A stretch of DNA of 64,000 bases from Bacteroidaceae bacterium (GTDB lineage: Bacteria; Bacteroidota; Bacteroidia; Bacteroidales; Bacteroidaceae): assembly GCA_017466325.1 (NCBI GenBank), contig JAFTUK010000008.1, positions 1 to 64,000 on the forward strand, in the 5' to 3' direction. Of the stretch, positions 110 to 11,015 are shown one piece after another. Each line of letters starts with the position of its first letter. Within the stretch, counting starts at the first letter, position 1. Position numbers and translations under genes: made by a program. Below the pieces are notes generated by a model. That model saw nothing but the letters and a program-made list of their open reading frames with translations. It did not search any database and was not told the DNA's origin.

Positions 110-248
110 CATAAATACTGATTTGTGTTGATTAATTATTAGTATATTTGTTAACTCTTTGTTTCTACTTTACCTTATCAACTATACCTTATATATAATA
201 TATACAGGTTATCTCCATCAGTTCACGGTCTCAGCAAAACGACCGTTT
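110..248. repeat. Left inverted-repeat arm of the invertible promoter cassette
   Basis: This arm is the reverse complement of 1068-1206. Within it, 112-157 matches 1159-1204 over 46 consecutive bases and 171-204 matches 1113-1146 over 34. The inner end, 235-248, matches 1068-1081 over 14. The sequence between these blocks is diverged and has at least one indel. Its outer end carries CAT (110-112), the complement of the susC start codon at the end of the other arm, so the arm is a copy of the susC 5' leader facing left. Confidence 0.95.
122..150 (+). promoter_or_regulatory. Inward promoter in the left arm, reading into the recombinase
   Basis: TTTG (122-125) and TATATTTG (143-150) match the Bacteroidetes -33 and -7 (TAnnTTTG) elements. 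The 17-base spacer is shorter than the usual 19-21. It would give a leader of about 135 bases before the recombinase start at 294. Confidence 0.5.
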
Positions 249-249
249 T
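236..249. other. Left crossover site of the serine invertase (predicted)
   Basis: AAAACGACCGTTTT is a dyad around a central AC at 242-243. Serine invertases cut at a 2-base core inside short dyad sites. It lies at the inner boundary of the inverted-repeat arm, and its mate at 1067-1080 has central GT, which is AC on the other strand. The sites are therefore inverted, which favours inversion over deletion. The flanks AAACG/CGT resemble, from memory, the B. fragilis Mpi consensus ARACGTWCGT. Confidence 0.75.
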
Positions 250-293
250 ATAGAATATCAACCAACAAACATTAAAAGCAATTAGAAAGTATT

Positions 294-947
294 ATGATTT
301 ACGGATACATCAGAGTGTCAACAGACAAGCAAACAGTGGAAAACCAAAGATACGAGATCCAACGTTATTGCGAAAGCAAGGGAATTTCTGTGGACAAATG
401 GATAGAAGAAACCGTGAGCGGAACGAAATCGTACTCGTCACGCTCGTTGGGCCGGGTGATAAAACGTATGGTCAAGGACGATGTCCTCGTATGCTCGGAA
501 CTCTCGCGCTTGGGCAGAACACTGTTCATGATAATGGAAATCCTCAGCCTTTGCCTCAACAAGGGATGCAGGGTATATACAGTCAAAGACAACTTCTGCC
601 TTGGCGACAACATAGAGAGCAAGGTCCTGGCCTTTGCTTTTGGCCTGAGTGCGGAAATAGAGAGGACACTCATAAGTCAGCGGACAAGGGAAGCCTTGCA
701 AAGGCTTAGGAACGAGGGCAAGCCTCTCGGGCGCCCCAAAGGGGCAAAAGGCAGGCATAACAAAATGCAAGGGAAAGCAGAGTTGGCGCGACAATTGCAC
801 AGGGAATATGGCGTAAAAGAGGCTTGCAAGATACTTGGGGTCAGCAAAAGCACGTTTTACAGATGTTGCGGCTTTAGACAAATGATAGCAAAATGTAAGC
901 AAAATGAGGGTGCGGATGTCAGTTCGCTAACAAATTGCCACAAATAG
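294..947 (+). CDS. Mpi/Hin-type serine DNA invertase
   Basis: The 217-residue protein is a small serine recombinase. YIRVSTDKQ at residues 4-12 contains the catalytic Ser9. Residues 67-74 (SELSRLGR) are the conserved S-x-x-R active-site segment. The long E-helix follows (AFGLSAEIERTLISQRT, about 115-131), then GRPKG and a C-terminal helix-turn-helix (EACKILGVSKSTFYRC). Length and order match invertases such as Hin, Gin and B. fragilis Mpi, and the opening MIYGYIRVSTDKQ is typical of the Mpi family. Ser recombinases of this class cut both strands at a 2-base core and rotate. The gene sits entirely between the two inverted crossover sites, so it would flip with the segment. It is probably transcribed from the promoter in the left arm. 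The about 60 residues after the helix-turn-helix region are basic and less conserved. Confidence 0.92.
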   Translation: MIYGYIRVSTDKQTVENQRYEIQRYCESKGISVDKWIEETVSGTKSYSSRSLGRVIKRMVKDDVLVCSELSRLGRTLFMIMEILSLCLNKGCRVYTVKDNFCLGDNIESKVLAFAFGLSAEIERTLISQRTREALQRLRNEGKPLGRPKGAKGRHNKMQGKAELARQLHREYGVKEACKILGVSKSTFYRCCGFRQMIAKCKQNEGADVSSLTNCHK

Positions 948-987
948 CCAAAAAGTAGTAATAAGAACAACATTTTTTCACAATTCC

Positions 988-1019
988 TTTGCTCACGTTG
1001 ATTAAATTTAGTACTTTTG
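988..1019 (+). promoter_or_regulatory. Outward promoter of the invertible segment, driving susC
   Basis: TTTG (988-991), 20 bases, then TACTTTTG (1012-1019): a full match to the Bacteroidetes TTTG-N19-21-TAnnTTTG promoter. It lies inside the invertible segment, downstream of the recombinase, and points to susC. Transcription would start near 1026 and give a leader of about 178 bases that runs through the right crossover site and right arm. Confidence 0.8.
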
Positions 1020-1066
1020 TGCCCAAATTGCGTTAAAATAAGTCAAAAGGGTCTATACGTCCCAAA

Positions 1067-1080
1067 CAAACGGTCGTTTT
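1067..1080. other. Right crossover site of the serine invertase (predicted)
   Basis: CAAACGGTCGTTTT matches the reverse complement of the left site at 13 of 14 positions. The central GT is at 1073-1074. Confidence 0.75.
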
Positions 1081-1206
1081 GTTGAGACCGCTTACTGATG
1101 AGAAAAAGCCTATATATATTATATATAAGGTATAGTTGATAAGGTAAAAAGAGCAAACGAGTTAACAAATATACTAATAATTAATCAACACAAATCAGTA
1201 TTTATG
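1068..1206. repeat. Right inverted-repeat arm, ending at the susC start codon
   Basis: Inverted copy of 110-248. It forms most of the susC leader and ends exactly on the ATG at 1204-1206. It contains an AT-only tract at 1111-1126 next to the 34-base identical block. Confidence 0.95.
1166..1194 (-). promoter_or_regulatory. Inward promoter in the right arm
   Basis: This is the mirror image of the left-arm promoter: TTTG (complement of 1191-1194) and TATATTTG (complement of 1166-1173), spacer 17. Here it reads antisense to the recombinase. After inversion of the segment it would read the recombinase in the sense direction. Confidence 0.45.
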
Positions 1207-4200
1207 AAAAAAAGACTCTCATTGATGCTTCTGTGCATGGTGGCAACCATTGCCGCTTGGGCGCAGACAGTTATCACTGGTACAGTAGTGTCTGCCGCTG
1301 ATGGCGAGCCCCTCATCGGCGCCTCTGTAAAGGTAAAGGGTGAAAAGACTGCAGCTGTGACCGACATGAACGGTAAGTTCAAGATCAGCACACAGGCCGG
1401 CAAGACCCTGGTATTCTCTTACATTGCCATGGAGGCAGTTGAACGTCCCGCCAAGAATGGCATGCGCGTGGAAATGAAGTCTGCCGAGGAGATGATGGAC
1501 GAACTGATGGTTATCGCTTATGGTACCCAGACACGTTCTTCATTTACCGGTTCTGCTTCTATCGTGGGAACTGAGGAGATTGCCAAGGTACAGGCTACCA
1601 ACTTTGCTGACGCTCTGAAGGGTAAGGCTGCCGGTGTGCAGATTACCACTGGTTCAGGCCAGCCCGGCACAACTCCCACAATCCAGATTCGCGGTTTCAA
1701 CTCTCTGAACGCCGGTATGTCTCCCTTGATTGTTGTGGACGGTGTCCCCTATGAAGGTTCTTTGAACGACATCAACACTCAGGACATCGAAAGCATCGTT
1801 GTACAGAAGGACGCAGCGTCTTCTGCACTGTATGGTGCACGTGGTGGTAACGGTGTGATTATGGTTACCACCAAGAGTGCCAAGAAGGGCCAGGATGCAA
1901 GGGTTACATTCGACGCAAAGTGGGGTTCTAACATGAAGGGCAAGGCTAACTATAGCCGTATCACCAATCCTGCAGCTTATTACGAGGCTTATTTCCAGAA
2001 GCTTAAGAACTACGCTATGGCAAAGCCCGGACAGGGTGCAGCCAATGGTCTGGGACTTTCTGAGGCAGAGGCATGGAAGTGGGCAAACCAGAACTTGATT
2101 GACGGTTCCGAGTTCGGTTTGCGCTATAACGTATTCACCCAGCCCGAGGGCCAGTATCTGATTGGCCGCGATGGCAAGTTGAATCCCAATGCCACTCTGG
2201 GCCGCATCGTTACCGGTGCCGACGGTAAGGACTACTACATTACCCCCGACAACTGGGAGGACGAGATCTACCACAATGGTCTGCGTCAGGAGTACAACCT
2301 GGGCGTAAGCGGTGCTACAGATCGCAGCACCTTCTATGCCAGTGCAAACTACCTGAACCACGAGGGTATCACATACAACTCTAACTACGAGCGCTTTACC
2401 GGCCGCATCAAGGCTGACTACCAGGCAAAGAAGTGGTTCAAACTTACTGCCGACATGAACTATTCTCACTTCGATCGCAACTCTGTGGACAACGAAGGTG
2501 ACGAACTTTCATCCAGTAACATGTTCTCTCTGCTGAACATTGCTCCCATCTATCCCGTATTCTATCGTGACGCACAGGGCAACATCATGTTCAACAAGGA
2601 GGCAGGCATCAAGGCATACGACTATGGTGACATCACCAACCTCGGTCTGGTACGTCCCTATCTGAACCAGGCCAACCCCATCTCTGACCTGTTGGTAAAT
2701 ACCAGTAACTCTGAGGGTAACACCTTCCGCGGTGTAGGTACTATCGACATCTACCTGCCCTATGGCTTCACCTTCACTTCTACCAACTCTGCCTACGTTT
2801 ACGAGAGCCGTGGTACAAGCGTTACCAATCCCTACTTCGGTCAGTACAAGAGCAGCAAGGGTATGGTTGGCAAGAGCCATTCACGTCAGTGGGACTTGAC
2901 CTTCGCACAGCGTCTGAACTGGCGCCAGACCTATGGCAAGAACGATATCGACGTGATGGTAGGTCATGAGTACTTCCGCAACCGCAACTATTCTCTGAGC
3001 GGCAGCAAGAGCAACATGTCTTCACAGGGCAACAAGGAACTTGACGGTGCCGTTATCGTACAGTCAACCGGTTCTTATTTCAGCGAGTACAACACAGAGT
3101 CATGGATGGCTCGTGGTATGTACAACTACGACAACCGCTACTTCGCTTACGCTTCTGTAATGGGCCAGGGTTCTTCTGCCTTCCATCCCGATCACCGTTG
3201 GGGTATGTTCTGGAGTGCCAGCGCAGGTTGGATGATGAGCAAGGAGAAGTGGTTCAAGGCTGACTGGGTAGACGAGTTGAAACTGAAGGCTTCTTATGGT
3301 GAGAACGGTAACGACCTGGGTATGCGCTACAGCTACTACTACACCAACCGTTACTCTATCGTAAATTCTGACAACAATATCGCTCTTACCCCCTCTACAA
3401 CCAAGGGTAACGAGGAACTTACCTGGGAAAAGAACTCCAAGTTCAACGTTGGTGTTGACTTCAGCCTGTTCAAGGGCCGCCTGACCGGTACCATGGAGTA
3501 CTACAACAACCGCACCGAGGACATGCTGGCAACAATTCCCTATCCTCCCACACTGGGTTACACCAGCGCACTGGCCAACGTAGGTAACATGAGCAACCAG
3601 GGCTTCGAAATGGAGTTGCGCGGTGACATTATCCGCACCAGCGATTTCAACTGGAACATCTATGCCAACATCTCTACCAACAGCAATAAGATTACCAAGC
3701 TTCACGAGGAGCGCAAGAAGCAGGAGTACGACGGTTACTGGGGTTACTCAAGCGGTTCTTACTATTACACAGAAGGTCTGTCACGCTATACATACTTCGG
3801 CAACAAGTATGCAGGTGTTTACAACGAGGAGACATATGCTCTCACAGGTGACGAGGTTTACGATCCTGCAAAGGGTGGTCTGGCCATGTACTACAAGAAC
3901 GTGTATAAGACTGACGCACAGGGCAATGTCCTGAAGGATGAGAACAAGGCCAAGATCGTAGAGAAGGTGATTGCTACAACCACATATTCTGAGGCTGACC
4001 AGTACGTTGGTGAGGATATGCTTGCCAAGGCATTCGGTGGTTTCGGTACCGGTTTCCAGTACAAGGGCTTTGACCTGAGCGTTGACTTCCAGTATCAGCT
4101 CGGTGGCAAGGTTTACGACGGTGAGTACCAGACCCTTATGGGCGGTATGGCTGGTTATGGCTTCCACACTGACGTTCTGAATGCATGGACTCCCGAGAAC

Positions 4201-4503
4201 TCTGGCAGCAATATCCCCCGCTTCCAGGCTTCTTACACCGGTATGACAAGTTCTTCAGACCGTTGGCTGACAAGTGCTTCTTATCTGACTCTGGGTAACA
4301 TCACATTCGGTTACACTCTGGACAAGAAGATTCTCAAGAGCGCACACATCGAGAGCGCACGTCTCTATTTCGTAGCAGACAACATCTACACATGGAGCAA
4401 GCGTAAGGGTCTGGATCCCCGTCAGTCTTTGACTGGTGGTTCAAGCGGTCAGATGTATTCTCCCATCCGTACTTTCTCATGCGGTGTTAACATTGTATTC
4501 TAA
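1204..4503 (+). CDS. SusC/RagA-family TonB-dependent outer-membrane transporter
   Basis: The 1099-residue protein starts with a signal peptide ending at AWA/Q (about residue 20). A CarboxypepD_reg-like domain follows (VITGTVVSAADGEPLIGASV, about 21-100), then a TonB-box-like stretch (ELMVIAYGTQ) and a plug domain with VDGVPYEG and SALYGARGGNGVIMVTTK (about 110-225). The rest is a beta-barrel ending in a hydrophobic, Phe-terminated strand (GVNIVF), as expected for BAM insertion. Such barrels import oligosaccharides or peptides, with SusD as the lid. The gene starts exactly at the end of the right inverted-repeat arm and precedes susD by 24 bases. Its expression should depend on the orientation of the invertible segment. 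The substrate cannot be told from sequence; the M6 protease downstream makes a peptide plausible. Confidence 0.95.
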   Translation: MKKRLSLMLLCMVATIAAWAQTVITGTVVSAADGEPLIGASVKVKGEKTAAVTDMNGKFKISTQAGKTLVFSYIAMEAVERPAKNGMRVEMKSAEEMMDELMVIAYGTQTRSSFTGSASIVGTEEIAKVQATNFADALKGKAAGVQITTGSGQPGTTPTIQIRGFNSLNAGMSPLIVVDGVPYEGSLNDINTQDIESIVVQKDAASSALYGARGGNGVIMVTTKSAKKGQDARVTFDAKWGSNMKGKANYSRITNPAAYYEAYFQKLKNYAMAKPGQGAANGLGLSEAEAWKWANQNLIDGSEFGLRYNVFTQPEGQYLIGRDGKLNPNATLGRIVTGADGKDYYITPDNWEDEIYHNGLRQEYNLGVSGATDRSTFYASANYLNHEGITYNSNYERFTGRIKADYQAKKWFKLTADMNYSHFDRNSVDNEGDELSSSNMFSLLNIAPIYPVFYRDAQGNIMFNKEAGIKAYDYGDITNLGLVRPYLNQANPISDLLVNTSNSEGNTFRGVGTIDIYLPYGFTFTSTNSAYVYESRGTSVTNPYFGQYKSSKGMVGKSHSRQWDLTFAQRLNWRQTYGKNDIDVMVGHEYFRNRNYSLSGSKSNMSSQGNKELDGAVIVQSTGSYFSEYNTESWMARGMYNYDNRYFAYASVMGQGSSAFHPDHRWGMFWSASAGWMMSKEKWFKADWVDELKLKASYGENGNDLGMRYSYYYTNRYSIVNSDNNIALTPSTTKGNEELTWEKNSKFNVGVDFSLFKGRLTGTMEYYNNRTEDMLATIPYPPTLGYTSALANVGNMSNQGFEMELRGDIIRTSDFNWNIYANISTNSNKITKLHEERKKQEYDGYWGYSSGSYYYTEGLSRYTYFGNKYAGVYNEETYALTGDEVYDPAKGGLAMYYKNVYKTDAQGNVLKDENKAKIVEKVIATTTYSEADQYVGEDMLAKAFGGFGTGFQYKGFDLSVDFQYQLGGKVYDGEYQTLMGGMAGYGFHTDVLNAWTPENSGSNIPRFQASYTGMTSSSDRWLTSASYLTLGNITFGYTLDKKILKSAHIESARLYFVADNIYTWSKRKGLDPRQSLTGGSSGQMYSPIRTFSCGVNIVF

Positions 4504-4527: not shown

Positions 4528-6147
4528 ATGAAAAAGATATTCAAATATTTGGGAAGCTCCGCAGCTGTCGCAGCCTGTGCCTTGACTCTGACCGGCTGTG
4601 TTGAGGAGACCCTTCCCCAGTCTGATATGGCAACTGACGAGATCGTTGCCGAGTCAACCTCTGCAACAGAGGGTCTTGCAAACGGTATGCCTGCCTATGT
4701 TACGGATGTATGGTCTACCAGTTCTCACTGCTATTTCGGCTATCCCGCAGAAATGATTGTACGTGACATGCTTACCGGTGACTATACTCATGTGGGTGAG
4801 ACCGGTTACAGCCACTTCATTTCATGGAACCGCAACCAGTACATGGGTCAGGACTACATGAAGCAGCAGTTCCACTGGAACTACTACTATGGATTCCTCA
4901 GCTCTGTAAATGGTGTTATCCGTGCTATTGACGAGGAGACGGCAGCACCTGGGCCTCTGGGCTATCTGGGTACCGCTTTGGCATATCGTGCTATGCTCTA
5001 TCTGGACTTGGCACGTATGTATGAGTTCCTTCCCAACGACAAGTTCCCTGACGGCAAGAATAGCGAGGGCAACACTGTGTTGAACCTGACTGTGCCCATC
5101 GTTGACCACCTGATTACTGAAAAGGAGGCTGAAGACAATCCCCGTGCTACACGTGAGGAGATGTTTGCCTTCATTCTGGGTGACCTTGACAAGGCCGAGA
5201 AGTATATCGTCAACCAGACCAACACCAACAACAACAGCATGCCCGACCTGGCTTGTGTCTATGGTCTGAAGGCTCGTCTGTACATGTGGGTAGAGCAGTA
5301 TGACAAGGCTAAGGAGTTTGCACGTAAGGCTATTTCTGCCGCCAAGGTTGCTCCTATATCTGAAGCAAGAGCATTGGGTTTAACTACTGGTTATAACACC
5401 TCTTCTGATTTCATGTGGTGCGCCAACCAGAATTCCGAGACTTATGCAGTACAGACCGGTATCATCAACTGGACTTCATGGGTAAGCAACCAGACCACTT
5501 TCGGTTACACTGGTGCTTCTACCATGCTCCACGTTGTAATGGACAAGAGCATGTACGAGCGTATCAGCGATACCGACTGGCGCAAGAAGCAGTGGGTGGC
5601 TCCTGCCGGTTCAGCTCTGGAAGGCCAGACTCCCTTCATGTCTGATCTGGACAAGGAAACCATGCCTGCTTATGCTTCCGTCAAGTTCCGTCCCAATGCA
5701 GGTGATGCCGAGGATTATCTGACAGGTGCTGCATCTGCTGTACCCTTGATGCGTGTTGAGGAAATGTACTTCATCGAGGCTGAGGCTGCCGAGCATGTTG
5801 CTGCCGGTACAGGTATTGCCCTGCTCACCGACTTCATGAAGCAGTATCGTGATCCCGCTTATGCTTACGCCGGTGAGGATGCCATTGACGAGATCGTATT
5901 CCAGAAGCGTGTAGAACTGTGGGGTGAGGGTCATACCTTCTTCGATATCAAGCGTCTGGACATGTCTGTAACCCGTGGTTACGAGGGTACAAACTGGCAG
6001 GATACACAGTCTCTGCTCAACACCAATGGTCGTCCTGCATGGACAAACTATGTGATTGTAAAGACTGAGGCTGCTAACAATGCCGCTTTGGTTAACTTCA
6101 ACAATCCTGACCCCAGCGACCTGTATCCAGCTTGGACAGCAAATTAA
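4528..6147 (+). CDS. SusD/RagB-family surface lipoprotein
   Basis: The 539-residue lipoprotein has a lipobox LTGC with the acylated Cys at residue 24, followed by acidic VEE, in keeping with surface export. The body shows the SusD TPR-like pattern: a helical N-terminal half (YLGTALAYRAMLYLDLARMY; ATREEMFAFILGDLDKAEKYI) and a C-terminal half ending in VFQKRVELWGEGHTFFDIKRLDM. The last is the family's conserved R-x-x-E-L-x-x-E-G-x-R/H-x-x-D-x-x-R segment. It would cap the upstream SusC barrel and bind the substrate outside the cell. It is co-transcribed with susC, and the next gene begins 87 bases further on, after a hairpin. Confidence 0.95.
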   Translation: MKKIFKYLGSSAAVAACALTLTGCVEETLPQSDMATDEIVAESTSATEGLANGMPAYVTDVWSTSSHCYFGYPAEMIVRDMLTGDYTHVGETGYSHFISWNRNQYMGQDYMKQQFHWNYYYGFLSSVNGVIRAIDEETAAPGPLGYLGTALAYRAMLYLDLARMYEFLPNDKFPDGKNSEGNTVLNLTVPIVDHLITEKEAEDNPRATREEMFAFILGDLDKAEKYIVNQTNTNNNSMPDLACVYGLKARLYMWVEQYDKAKEFARKAISAAKVAPISEARALGLTTGYNTSSDFMWCANQNSETYAVQTGIINWTSWVSNQTTFGYTGASTMLHVVMDKSMYERISDTDWRKKQWVAPAGSALEGQTPFMSDLDKETMPAYASVKFRPNAGDAEDYLTGAASAVPLMRVEEMYFIEAEAAEHVAAGTGIALLTDFMKQYRDPAYAYAGEDAIDEIVFQKRVELWGEGHTFFDIKRLDMSVTRGYEGTNWQDTQSLLNTNGRPAWTNYVIVKTEAANNAALVNFNNPDPSDLYPAWTAN

Positions 6148-6234: not shown

Positions 6235-8130
6235 ATGAAGATATTAAGTAGAATCCTTTCTATCGCTTTATTACTGCCTGCATTGTCTGTATTCGTTTCT
6301 TGTAGCGAAGAGCAAGACGGTTATGTTCCTGCTCCTCTGGAAAAAGGCGGCCAGGTATATTTCAATAGCGATAACACATCAAGTTTCACAGTAACTGATG
6401 TGCAGAACACGTTTGAACTCTCTCTTGGTCGTGTTGATACTGCCGAGACAGCAAGTTATGACCTGAAGGTTGTTGCAGACGAGGCAACACTGCCCTTGTT
6501 CAATATTCCTGCTGCTGTTGCATTCGAGAAAGGAGAGGCATTTGCAAAGGTTGCTTGTACTGCCAACACAACTGAAATGGAGTACGACAAGACTTATACC
6601 GTAAAGGTTTGTGTTGCCAATGCTCAGGACGCAACTCTCTATGGCCAGGATACTCTCACTATCTCTGTTACTTGTCCTGCTCCCTGGAAGTCTCTGGGTA
6701 TGGCAAAGTTCGCCGAGAACTTCCTTGACGGTTCCGGCACATACTACGACGTGGAGGTGCAGCAGAATGAACTCGCTCCCAATAACTTCCGCCTTGTAGA
6801 ACCTTATGCTGAAATTCTCGGCGACATCGCTGTTGACAAGTATCTTGAGTTCTTCATCCTGCCCGCAGGTTCTGAGTTTGCCGACTTTACCACAGACGCC
6901 GAGTATGTGATCTTCAACGACTATAACATGGGGCAGTGGAACAGCAACTACGCAGAGGACATCTTTGCTTTGCACCCCTATCGCTTCGGCCGCACTCCCG
7001 ACAAGTGGAACTACAATGTCGTTCTTGAATATCAGGAGAACGGTTTGCCTGGTGAGGTTTCTCTGGCTCCTCTGTACTACCTCTTCAATGAAGGTGGTGG
7101 TTGGGACAAGACTACTGCAAATACCATCAGCATTCTCTTCCCCGGCTACGTAAAGGCTGACTATAGCGCAAGTGTTGAATTTGCTGGTATATTCACTGCT
7201 AAGGACGGAAAAATCTATGCAACTGGCGACCTGACTCTGGGTGCTGATGCCTCAGACGTTAAAGCTATCGTAATGCCTGCTGATGTAGACGCAGCTGCTG
7301 TGGCTGATGCTATCGCGGCTGGTGAACTTGAAGCAGTTGACGTAAAGGCTGGCCGCATCGAGGTTCCCTTCAATGCAGAGGAACTGGGTGGCAACAACTT
7401 CCAGATTATCGTTGTTGTATTGGCGGAAGGTGCTGTCAAGAGCGTTGCAACCAATTCATTTGAGTACTATGGCGCCGGTAACAGCAACCCCTGGCAGTCT
7501 TTGGGTACAGGTTTCTATACTGACGACGTTCTGGTTCCCCTGTTCTATGAGGGAGGAACTCCTGTAACATACGAGGTGGAGATTCTGGAGCACACCGAGA
7601 ATCCCGGTCTGTACCGTATCATGGATCCCTATGCAAAGTCTGTTCATCCTCTGGGTGATGCTGACTATGCTCCCGAAGGTCTGTATATTGAGGTTAATGC
7701 AACAGATGCTGAGGGTGTTTACATCCAGCAACAGTCTTTGGGCATGGACTGGGGTTATGGTGAAATGCAACTTGTGACCAATGGTGCACGCTATCTGGCA
7801 TCAAACCCCTTTGAAGTAGTTAAAGGCGCAGGATATCTTGGTAAGGTTGCTGAAGGTGTTATTGTTTTCCCGACATTCACTCAAAGCAACGGTGCCACCT
7901 ATCAGGCTATTCTCTTTATGGGTGAGTCTGGTTATCTCGCTGGTATGAACAGCAAGATGGAGATTACCCTTCCCGGTGCCAACGCCTTTGCCCGTAACAT
8001 GGCTATAGCCAAGGCTAATACCACAAAGAGAGAGATGGCCAAGAAGTCTTTCTCTGGTGCTAAGGCAAATTTGAAGCTGAAGAAACTTCTGAACCTCCAG
8101 GCTGAAGAATGTGGTACACCTAATTCCTAA
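6235..8130 (+). CDS. Surface lipoprotein of the SusCD locus with duplicated domain
   Basis: The 631-residue protein has a lipobox (VSC, Cys23) followed by SEEQD, close to the acidic surface-export signals of Bacteroidetes lipoproteins. An N-terminal Ig-like region (about 35-145, ending in TLTISVTC) is followed by a domain opening with PWKSLG near residue 150. A second copy opens with PWQSLG near residue 419. Both continue with a tyrosine/valine beta strand and a PYAE/PYAK turn (FRLVEPYAE; YRIMDPYAK), so the region is an internal duplication. The C-terminus (from about 580) is Lys/Ala-rich. It has no catalytic signature that I recognise. By position it is the surface binding protein ('SusE/F-like') of the transporter. 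The specific family is not identified. Confidence 0.75.
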   Translation: MKILSRILSIALLLPALSVFVSCSEEQDGYVPAPLEKGGQVYFNSDNTSSFTVTDVQNTFELSLGRVDTAETASYDLKVVADEATLPLFNIPAAVAFEKGEAFAKVACTANTTEMEYDKTYTVKVCVANAQDATLYGQDTLTISVTCPAPWKSLGMAKFAENFLDGSGTYYDVEVQQNELAPNNFRLVEPYAEILGDIAVDKYLEFFILPAGSEFADFTTDAEYVIFNDYNMGQWNSNYAEDIFALHPYRFGRTPDKWNYNVVLEYQENGLPGEVSLAPLYYLFNEGGGWDKTTANTISILFPGYVKADYSASVEFAGIFTAKDGKIYATGDLTLGADASDVKAIVMPADVDAAAVADAIAAGELEAVDVKAGRIEVPFNAEELGGNNFQIIVVVLAEGAVKSVATNSFEYYGAGNSNPWQSLGTGFYTDDVLVPLFYEGGTPVTYEVEILEHTENPGLYRIMDPYAKSVHPLGDADYAPEGLYIEVNATDAEGVYIQQQSLGMDWGYGEMQLVTNGARYLASNPFEVVKGAGYLGKVAEGVIVFPTFTQSNGATYQAILFMGESGYLAGMNSKMEITLPGANAFARNMAIAKANTTKREMAKKSFSGAKANLKLKKLLNLQAEECGTPNS

Positions 8131-8223: not shown

Positions 8224-10611
8224 ATGTATATGTTGAATAAGTATAAGTTAGTCCTACTCATCTTGCTGGCAATGTGTCTCCAGATGCAGGTTTTTGCAGT
8301 GCCAGCATTACCGGTGCTGAAGAAACTGAAGGTTGGAAGTGTTGAGTATTCCGTTACCTTGTGTGGTGACGAGTTCTTCCATTATTGGCAGGCAGAGACT
8401 GGTGAGAAGATTGTCAAGAGGCCTGACGGGCGTTTTCATATCCTCTCCTTCTATGAGACGGAAAACATGGTGCAGTTGGCTGCGGAGGCAAGAAACCGCG
8501 AGAATGTTCGCCGTACCCAAAAAAGGACACATGGTTTCCTGACATCATTGACTGGAAGCAAGAAAGGTCTGGTGATACTGGTAAATTTCAAGGACAATGC
8601 GTTCAGTACTTCTAATACGCAAAAGCTGTACAATGAGATATTCAATCAGTTGAACTATTCTGGTTATGGCATGACTGGCTCTGTACGTGACTATTTTCTG
8701 GCACAAAGTTACGGCCAATTTGACATGACGTTGGATGTGGCGGGTCCATATACTTTGTCTGCCTCAATGGCCTCGTATGGAGGAAACGATGCTAACGGTT
8801 CGGATATTGGTGTCAGGGCGTTTGCCAAGGAATCGTTCATGTTGGCCGATGCCGATGTCAACTATAAGGACTACGATTGGAACGGTGATGGAGTGGTAGA
8901 GCAGGTCTTTATCGTTTATGCCGGTTATGGTGAGGCCCAGGGTGCTCCTGCAAATACCATTTGGCCTCATTCCTATGGCCTGGCAGAACCGTTGATGTTG
9001 GATGGAGTGGGGGTATCACAGTATGCCTGCAGTTCCGAACTTCGTGGATACCGGGGACAAGAAATTGATGGTATAGGAACAGTTTGCCATGAATTCAGTC
9101 ATTGCCTGGGATTGGCTGACCATTATGACACACAAGGCAGTAACTTCGGAACAAGTTATTGGGACGTTATGGCAGCCGGTTCATACAACAACAACTCATG
9201 CACGCCTGCGGCCTACACCTCCTTTGAAAGATGGTCCATGGGATGGCTCGAGCCAACGGAACTGACTTCACAGACAGATGTGGCGGGAATGAAATCCCTG
9301 GTTGACTCTCCCGAGGCATACATCCTGTACAACGATGCCAATCCCGATGAGTTCTACCTGTTGGAAAACCGTCAGCAGAAGGGGTTCGATGCTGGTCTGT
9401 ATGGTCATGGTCTCTTGGTTCTGCATGTGGATTATGATGCCCAGGTGTGGGCTGCCAATTCTGTCAATGTAGCCTCTTCGCGCCAAAGAATGACTATTAT
9501 CCCTGCTGATGACCAAAAGACGAACAGTGTAGCTTCCCTGCGTGCCGACCCATTCCCCGGGACCATGGGCGTAATTGCGCTTACAGACAACACAACACCT
9601 GCCGCAGTCCTGTACAACAGCAATGCAGACGGACGGAAACTGATGGGCAAGCCTATCGAGGATATCACAGAGGACAAGAACGGACTGATTTCCTTCAAAG
9701 CGCTCTATCCCACCCTTTCTGCCCCGGAGCCTACCTACACATCATCTAACAATGCCGGTTCGTTCACTCTGAACTGGCCTGCAGTGCCGTACGCCGACCG
9801 CTACGAGTTGCAGGTTACGGAATATGGTGGCAAGAAGACTCCTCAGGAGTCGATGATAATAGAGGAAAACTTTGACGGAACATACAAGTCAACAGCAGGC
9901 TTTACCGACATTGGTTCCAAGTTGTCTGACTATCTGAGCACAAAAGGCTTTTCCGGTTCTGCTCTTTTCCAGTCTCCATACAAGTTGCGCTTTGGTACAG
10001 GAACAACGAAGGGCACACTGAAATCCCCTACCATAGACACACTTTCCACAGCACGCTTCACCCTTGTGCTCAAGGTGAAACCTTATACAGAGGGGACAGC
10101 GGTAAAAGGTTCTCTGAATGTAGTGACGGAACTCTCCAGCAGCATGAATGTGCCGTTCGAGTTCTCGGAAGAAGGCTATCTTGTGTTGTACCCCACAGAC
10201 AACATCGAAACGCTGTTCCTGTTCAATATCAAGCCCGACAGCCGCATGTACTTGAGTTACCTGGCTCTCTACGACGGCGAGTTTACGGCAGAGGAACTCG
10301 GACTTGATGCGTCTGCGAGAACAAGAGCAAGCATGCATCCCGTCACAACATACTACACCTCTGAACCTCAATACGTGTTCGAGGGAATGAACCCAACGTC
10401 AAGATACGAGATTATAGTACGTGCCATAGACGGTAACCGTTATTCCCCCTGGAGCAACGTCTGCTCTGTGGACTTTGGCTCAACGGGCATCACTGACATG
10501 CGTCAGGAGACAAGGGAACAGCATGTCTATTATGACCTTAATGGCCACCGTGTCCAGAACATGAACGCCAAGGGAATCTACATAATGAACGGCAAGAAGG
10601 TTCTGTACTAA
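8224..10611 (+). CDS. Secreted M6-family (immune inhibitor A-like) zinc metalloprotease
   Basis: The 795-residue protein has an N-terminal signal segment (LVLLILLAMCLQMQVFA). The zinc-binding motif HEFSHCLGLADHY begins at residue 289 (HExxH at 289-293), with a downstream SYWDVMAAGSYNN Met-turn and LLENRQ, all typical of peptidase family M6. A fibronectin-III-like stretch follows (YTSSNNAGSFTLNWPAVPYADRYELQV). The C-terminus, STGITDM...YYDLNGHRVQ...KGIYIMNGKKVLY, is a short tail also found on the 58206-61289 protein. It looks like a T9SS-type sorting tail, and SprA is encoded in this window. The gene is 93 bases after the lipoprotein gene, beyond a terminator. It probably supplies peptides to the SusCD transporter; this is inference. 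A second possible start lies two codons in (8230). Confidence 0.88.
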   Translation: MYMLNKYKLVLLILLAMCLQMQVFAVPALPVLKKLKVGSVEYSVTLCGDEFFHYWQAETGEKIVKRPDGRFHILSFYETENMVQLAAEARNRENVRRTQKRTHGFLTSLTGSKKGLVILVNFKDNAFSTSNTQKLYNEIFNQLNYSGYGMTGSVRDYFLAQSYGQFDMTLDVAGPYTLSASMASYGGNDANGSDIGVRAFAKESFMLADADVNYKDYDWNGDGVVEQVFIVYAGYGEAQGAPANTIWPHSYGLAEPLMLDGVGVSQYACSSELRGYRGQEIDGIGTVCHEFSHCLGLADHYDTQGSNFGTSYWDVMAAGSYNNNSCTPAAYTSFERWSMGWLEPTELTSQTDVAGMKSLVDSPEAYILYNDANPDEFYLLENRQQKGFDAGLYGHGLLVLHVDYDAQVWAANSVNVASSRQRMTIIPADDQKTNSVASLRADPFPGTMGVIALTDNTTPAAVLYNSNADGRKLMGKPIEDITEDKNGLISFKALYPTLSAPEPTYTSSNNAGSFTLNWPAVPYADRYELQVTEYGGKKTPQESMIIEENFDGTYKSTAGFTDIGSKLSDYLSTKGFSGSALFQSPYKLRFGTGTTKGTLKSPTIDTLSTARFTLVLKVKPYTEGTAVKGSLNVVTELSSSMNVPFEFSEEGYLVLYPTDNIETLFLFNIKPDSRMYLSYLALYDGEFTAEELGLDASARTRASMHPVTTYYTSEPQYVFEGMNPTSRYEIIVRAIDGNRYSPWSNVCSVDFGSTGITDMRQETREQHVYYDLNGHRVQNMNAKGIYIMNGKKVLY

Positions 10612-10706: not shown

Positions 10707-10911
10707 ATTTTTTAGGGAAACCCGTTTGCAACACCCTCTGAGTTCATTGTATCCTACATCCCGGCTTTATGTTTCCGTGGCGCGGACAACGGGCGCAAAG
10801 CCTTACGGTTAGTTTGCCGTCGTTGCCTTGTGTAAAAAAATCCACATCCGAGAAGACAGGAACCTGTCCTTATGACAACAAGGTGCAGAGGACAAGAAAA
10901 AAGCAAGCGGT

Positions 10912-11015
10912 CTCCAGTACCGATTTTTGTACCGCAATATCGGTACTGGAGTACCACCATGTCGGTACTGGAGTACTGCCGTGTCGGTACTGGAGTACTG
11001 CCGTGTCGGTACTGG
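10912..11015. repeat. 22-bp tandem repeat (3.4 copies) plus one inverted copy
   Basis: CGGTACTGGAGTAC recurs at 10941, 10963 and 10985, with a partial copy at 11007, always 22 bases apart. The spacers are eight-base variants of TGCCGTGT. An inverted copy at 10912-10924 pairs with 10939-10951 as a 13-bp hairpin. It lies between convergent gene ends (M6 protease and the ligase at 11060) and may serve as the operon's terminator. Confidence 0.9.

Follow-up and report, generated by a model that had tools for sequence, protein, structure and literature searches.

An invertase gene enclosed by inverted repeats, next to a SusC/SusD operon, raises the question of what its segment controls: the expression of that one operon, or a choice between two. 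We consider this question for the left end of a 64,000-nucleotide stretch of DNA, hereafter the window (positions 1 to 64,000 of contig JAFTUK010000008.1, assembly GCA_017466325.1, Bacteroidaceae bacterium, related to Bacteroides and Prevotella), which belongs to a metagenome draft of 2.59 Mb in 56 contigs, 88% complete. The contig that carries it (C20) starts at window base 1, and the left context of the locus is, therefore, truncated. The features on which the argument turns are given below, with C5 denoting another contig of the same genome and IS an insertion sequence.

1-111, no strand: right end of the IS, 96% identical to C5:35952-36062
112-114, no strand: TAA, target-site duplication of the IS
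112-235, minus strand: left arm, the 5' leader of susC2
122-150, plus strand: inward promoter-like site TTTG-N17-TATATTTG in the left arm, proposed invertase promoter (0.004 expected per arm)
236-248, plus strand: left crossover core AAAACGACCGTTT, an exact 13-mer at the inner edge of the left arm
294-947, plus strand: serine invertase of the Mpi family, a 217-aa open reading frame (Pfam Resolvase; NCBIfam NF009949; R7, S9, R72 and R75)
988-1019, plus strand: outward promoter-like site TTTG-N20-TACTTTTG facing susC1 (TTTG at 988-991, 20-bp spacer, TACTTTTG at 1012-1019)
1068-1080, minus strand: right crossover core AAAACGACCGTTT, an exact 13-mer at the inner edge of the right arm
1081-1203, plus strand: right arm, the susC1 leader
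1166-1194, minus strand: inward promoter-like site TTTG-N17-TATATTTG in the right arm, identical in sequence to that of the left arm
1204-1525, plus strand: shared susC head, the first 107 residues being 91% identical to susC2 and the rest 26%
1204-4503, plus strand: susC1, SusC/RagA family, 1099 aa, ATG at 1204 (TIGR04056, 758.7 bits against a cut-off of 368.25)
4528-6147, plus strand: susD1 (Pfam SusD_RagB and SusD-like_3)
6235-8130, plus strand: putative lipoprotein, 631 aa, so named from its N-terminus
8224-10611, plus strand: M6 metalloprotease (PF05547; TIGR03296, 199.6 bits)
C5:31451-34426, minus strand: susC2, in the same genome as the window, 97% identical to its copy in the sister genome G047

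Identity between the two inverted arms (110-248 and 1068-1206) amounts to 89% across 139-140 bp, and the match resolves into three ungapped blocks of 88-98% each; the best ungapped block scores 48, whereas shuffling the mononucleotides of the downstream side 40 times gave 11 at most. The core at the inner edge of each is a near-palindrome with an asymmetric AC at its centre, and the 2.59-Mb assembly (88% complete) holds no exact copy of it other than these two. When one mismatch is allowed, the whole of that assembly yields six matches, the same number as for the reversed-pattern control, and distant targets for the window invertase were rejected on this ground. Within the arms there is also an AT-rich palindrome around ATACCTTATATATAATATATA, at 183-204 and 1113-1134; this was rejected as a special part of the switch, since the genome has eight further places that match it over 21-43 bases.

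The enzyme encoded between the cores is full length and scores 114.8 bits against the Pfam Resolvase model (PF00239). Its score against the NCBIfam model for the Mpi family (NF009949) is 280.9 bits, a narrow pass at a cut-off of 272. Arg7, Ser9, Arg72 and Arg75, which we take to be the catalytic residues, are invariant across the 12 sequences compared, and the best matches among solved structures carry the title DNA-invertase (4m6f, presumably Gin, 57 bits). An earlier note on this DNA had described the locus as a Hin-like, self-contained unit: inverted repeats with an invertase and an outward promoter inside them, facing susC1 as sequenced. The anatomy stands, given the arms, the cores, the open reading frame and the site at 988-1019; so does the self-containment, as enzyme, promoter-like site and recombination sites are all present, and the assembly offers no further exact core. 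The word Hin-like, read as kinship, is not upheld by an enzyme that passes the Mpi-family model, if narrowly.

With a limit of E 0.001, the invertase is matched in 19 of the 139 genomes of the genus. In a tree of these enzymes, built with no known Hin or Gin protein, the two-way label was given to six rows (including L035, of which one side is visible) and requires three changes; 259 of 500 shuffles do equally well, and the bootstrap is unsettled. One clade for the two-way invertases was, accordingly, not upheld, although the tree leaves room for a single origin. Enclosing inverted repeats with a score of at least 18 were detected in 9 of the 115 invertase loci scanned, a set in which two genes are partial, some entries are near-copies and some contigs end too soon for repeats to show; as a general trait of such invertases they were rejected on this count.

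With respect to transcription, a type of Bacteroidales invertible promoter with the elements -33 TTTG and -7 TANNTTTGY, placed beside a local invertase gene, is described in PMC8748976. One strict outward match occurs in the window segment, where 0.11 would be expected, and this site (988-1019) would drive susC1; judged from promoter direction alone, susC1 would be ON as sequenced. Across the six loci compared, strict matches occur in the segments of three; that of L175 points the opposite way relative to its invertase, and in the segments of L034, L037 and L038 the -7 element alone is matched. Between the core and the invertase start codon there are just 45 bp, probably too few to hold a promoter, and we propose that the inward site of the arms serves instead. 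It is found in 4 of 11 arms over the six loci, against 0.23 expected, two of the four being the window's own near-copies, and no strict promoter site facing outward was found in the same 11 arms. Being present in both arms, the inward promoter would transcribe the invertase in either orientation.

What lies to the left of the segment is revealed by the IS. The sole full copy in the assembly, at C5 34429-36062, is ~1.6 kb long, has rve transposase domains (and is presumably IS3-like), and its ends, TGTCTT.../...AAGACA, form terminal inverted repeats by eye. The C5 copy lies 2 bp upstream of the susC2 start codon, where C5 reads ...CATAA and then IS; the window reads IS and then TAAATACTG, and in G047 the sequence is uninterrupted, CATAAATACTG (L043). 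From this, the IS appears to separate susC2 from its own leader, with TAA duplicated. Indeed, window 110-248 is 98.6% identical to the G047 susC2 leader (L043 9464-9602), and the homology continues on the other side of the segment, window 1202-1525 being 93% identical to the start of susC2. The earlier note had the right repeat ending exactly on the susC start codon; as a matter of design this is not supported, the edge being instead that of the IS insertion (the last two bases of which, CA, extend the arm match by chance), and the homology runs on into both susC genes. Its one-sided ON/OFF reading is likewise not borne out, as the left arm is the susC2 leader and both flanks carry susC operons in relatives.

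Within the window genome, the adjacency of susC2 and the window rests on the TAA duplication together with G047, where DNA corresponding to the C5 stretch (97.7%) and to the C20 stretch (97.9%) is found on a single contig, C18. Beyond the IS, C5 continues into DNA whose G047 counterpart is on another contig, C28; either C5 is chimeric at the IS, or it was rearranged there by recombination between IS copies.

The same sister genome, a draft of about 40 contigs and 88% complete, also bears on inversion itself: in G047, the promoter-bearing end of the segment is joined to the susC2 leader, i.e. it is in the opposite orientation. Among the alignment columns of the G047 arm in which the two window arms differ, 14 (two of them gaps) follow the left arm, one follows the right arm and one neither, the last such column being 2 bp short of the core. 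With the first base past the core, G047 changes over to the right end of the window segment, with the exception of one odd column and another at the ragged end; the point of exchange is thereby mapped to 14 bp, CAAAACGACCGTTT, around the core. We regard this junction, for which each orientation is drawn from a separate draft genome and not both from one strain, as strong comparative evidence for site-specific inversion at the core, the expected product of which it represents. At this locus, G047 has neither the opposite arm nor any of the susC1 operon as far as window 10911, and 138 codons, two thirds of the gene, are missing from the start of its invertase; the absence of susC1 refers to the switch locus only. 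The window genome and G047, thus, each appear to have lost one side of the switch. Short repeats around CCAGTACCGACACGG, at window 10911-11014, adjoin the end of the G047 deletion, and a similar stretch lies near 74200 of the same contig.

The arrangement recurs. Four further loci (L034, L037, L038 and L175), each in another genome, likewise have an invertase flanked by divergent susC operons and accompanied by inverted core-like sites; no IS was seen at L037. The centre of the core is AC in the window, L034, L035, L037 and L038, and GG in L175, and the arms are otherwise different. A motif search located the core pairs of L034, L035 and L037, and the pairs of L038 and L175 were picked out by eye; when near-palindromic inverted pairs were sought blindly, only the window yielded its core. 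A single susC is present in L035, the contig of which stops where the second repeat ends. L042 and L085 have susC on both sides and no matching core pair; indeed, no clear core pair was found in L036, L042, L085 or L111, though susC is nearby in each, and L111 has an inverted CGACCG pair in unlike surroundings. Among the nine repeat-bearing loci, two (L102 and L107) are not adjacent to susC. At L107 (8104-10243), in an uncultured Prevotellaceae metagenome-assembled genome, a similar invertase is flanked by small genes in inverted orientation, the products of which begin MERKxYxKPFM; this is possibly a different invertible cassette. The nearest invertases, at L032 and L033 (~72% identical), have no enclosing repeats. 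They lie beside M6 protease genes in SusC/SusD neighbourhoods (L032 9231-12274 and L033 5779-8911), and it is possible that they are relics of such switches.

In the window genome, the two members of the SusC pair share a head and differ in the body, and the pattern extends to some other loci: the paired SusC proteins are 89% identical in the head and 40% in the rest at L034, and 90% and 27%, respectively, at L037. The pattern is also seen in L042, is weak in L085 and is absent in L175, and the head was not found in three other SusC proteins of the window genome. L038 was left out of this comparison because its two susC genes, read from the expected ATG, stay open for 52 and 29 codons only; they may be broken or misassembled. 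The shared heads could be explained by conversion between inverted copies, or by a common periplasmic partner.

The operons have a further common element. Each of the ten gene sets of the window/C5, L034, L037, L038 and L175 has, on its own strand, a peptidase gene of type M6 or C10, membership of a single operon being taken from gene order and strand. The pairs are M6/M6 in window/C5, C10/C10 in L034, M6/C10 in L037, C10/C10 in L038 and M6/C10 in L175. In the map of L085, which has susC on both sides, no peptidase is labelled, the peptidase Pfam scan having covered neither L085 nor L042. Pfam confirmed SusD for eight of these ten sets; that of the C5 set rests on its G047 counterpart, and the left SusD of L034 on DNA similarity only. 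For the 631-aa putative lipoprotein, Pfam and NCBIfam profile searches found no family, and similar proteins occur in several related operons. In the window genome, two of the three M6 genes and two of the five SusC genes above cut-off (there are 11 weaker matches) are in the two switch operons, and both of its C10 genes lie on contigs other than C5 and C20. It is from the peptidases in these operons that we infer a possible role in peptide uptake.

Taken together, we consider it probable that the locus is a self-contained, either/or selector, in which an Mpi-family invertase chooses between two divergent SusC/SusD-protease operons. The observations behind this are the sequence anatomy, the opposite orientation and mapped exchange in G047, the IS with its duplication, and the recurrence of the arrangement; the activity of the enzyme and of the promoters, co-transcription, reversibility in living cells and the substrate are what we infer. 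The segment of ~0.8 kb between the inverted cores would supply both the serine invertase and one outward promoter. The enzyme would exchange strands within the core, between half-sites AAAACG/CGTTTT and about the AC centre, such that the promoter would face either susC1 (to the right, as in the window) or susC2 (to the left) and drive, in either orientation, one of two divergent operons encoding SusC, SusD, a lipoprotein and an M6 protease. The arms would give both susC genes one leader, and would provide an inward invertase promoter in both orientations; the paired SusC proteins have a near-identical head on differing bodies. The likely outcome is clonal variation in a surface importer and protease set, perhaps for peptides. 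In the window genome, the left output has probably been severed by the IS that parts the susC2 ATG from its leader, and susC1 alone would now be switchable.

Other readings of the locus have to be weighed against the selector. The most serious of them, which we nevertheless think unlikely, is that the switch is a decayed relic: the segment once inverted and is now locked, with the invertase or its expression defunct. The truncated invertase and missing susC1 of the G047 locus would fit such decay, as would the IS at the susC2 leader of the window genome and the absence of repeats around the close invertases at L032 and L033; against it, the window invertase is full length with its catalytic residues conserved, and both cores are exact. 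A cassette that turns susC1 alone ON and OFF, its left arm having no target of its own, is improbable. The window does show an IS and no gene start past the left arm, and the present strain may act in a one-sided manner, but the contig begins at window base 1, the left arm matches the G047 susC2 leader, susC2 itself is in the window genome, and relatives have operons on both sides; on these grounds, the one-sided cassette was rejected.

Inversion might also have come about through homologous recombination between the long arms, along with the shared susC heads, the invertase taking no part. The substrate for it exists, in 139-bp arms and ~320 bp of susC head that are 89-93% identical, and the longest inverted matches reach 801, 403 and 336 columns at L014, L017 and L018 (the short loci of L034, L037 and L038, respectively). 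However, the G047 exchange falls inside 14 bp with the core and not elsewhere in the arm, and the core motif is kept while the arms differ between species, which makes this route very improbable. The last reading, that misassembled draft contigs have produced the repeat arrangement or the difference in orientation, draws on the fact that both genomes are drafts, that the window contig starts inside an IS and that C5 is perhaps chimeric; it is scarcely credible in view of the like anatomy, with different arm sequences, in several other assemblies, and of a TAA duplication that fits exactly.

The selector that we favour has points in common with several known systems. In the hin/fljBA system of Salmonella, the serine invertase gene lies in the segment, with an outward promoter near its far end and short palindromic sites that have a 2-bp asymmetric centre. 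The window locus shares the invertase gene within its own segment, the outward promoter and the short palindromic sites with such a centre; it differs in an enzyme that passes the Mpi model, and in having as its alternative targets two divergent operons with SusC/SusD and peptidases. In Bacteroides fragilis, the mpi gene is located outside the capsule promoters that Mpi flips, whereas the window gene is inside its segment and finds only two exact sites in the assembly, not many distant ones. Tsr0667 of the same species is a tyrosine enzyme; the window, in contrast to the shufflon of Tsr0667, has two states, a serine enzyme encoded in the segment, and two exact sites rather than three or more. 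RagA/RagB of Porphyromonas gingivalis is a peptide importer of the SusC/SusD type, a pair of the same type as that in the window, where the peptidases suggest peptide uptake as well; we know of no invertible promoter for RagAB. In the sources consulted, the invertible promoters of the Bacteroidales are mainly ON/OFF, with enzymes encoded outside the segment.

Mpi of B. fragilis inverts 13 regions, and Tsr0667 brings about inversions of the shufflon type, which affect nine regions besides three SusC/SusD clusters (PMC4747536); the likeness to the window is, in the former case, one of recombinase family (NF009949) and Bacteroidales promoter type (PMC4747536 and PMC12632263), and, in the latter, that inversion decides which SusC/SusD set is expressed. 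The invertible promoters of PMC8748976 lie downstream of the invertase gene, whereas the window segment encloses its own. Invertible regions in or near SusC/SusD systems are reported in PMC10939037, and inversion near such genes is, therefore, already known. According to PMC11892184, invertases near invertons are generally not regulatable by those invertons, and the hin/fljBA flagellar switch is treated in PMC11868660. In the open-licence literature searched, we found no description of the two-way SusC/SusD arrangement.

Whether the locus stands for an undescribed class in the Bacteroidales is, in our judgement, evenly balanced. In such an either/or class, a segment-encoded Mpi-family invertase would pick between divergent SusC/SusD-protease operons, the paired SusC proteins having a near-identical N-terminal head (signal peptide and CarboxypepD-like domain) and a swapped body, and the arms promoting the invertase both ways. 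If this is true, peptide-foraging systems would be varied clonally, as flagellins are in Salmonella. A compact two-way unit of this kind would split a clonal population over the nutrients that it takes up, or over the surface proteins that phages or immunity see, and it is small enough for the whole unit to be tested in a laboratory host. Moreover, the two sister genomes, each apparently one-sided, suggest a route by which such switches become fixed in one state.
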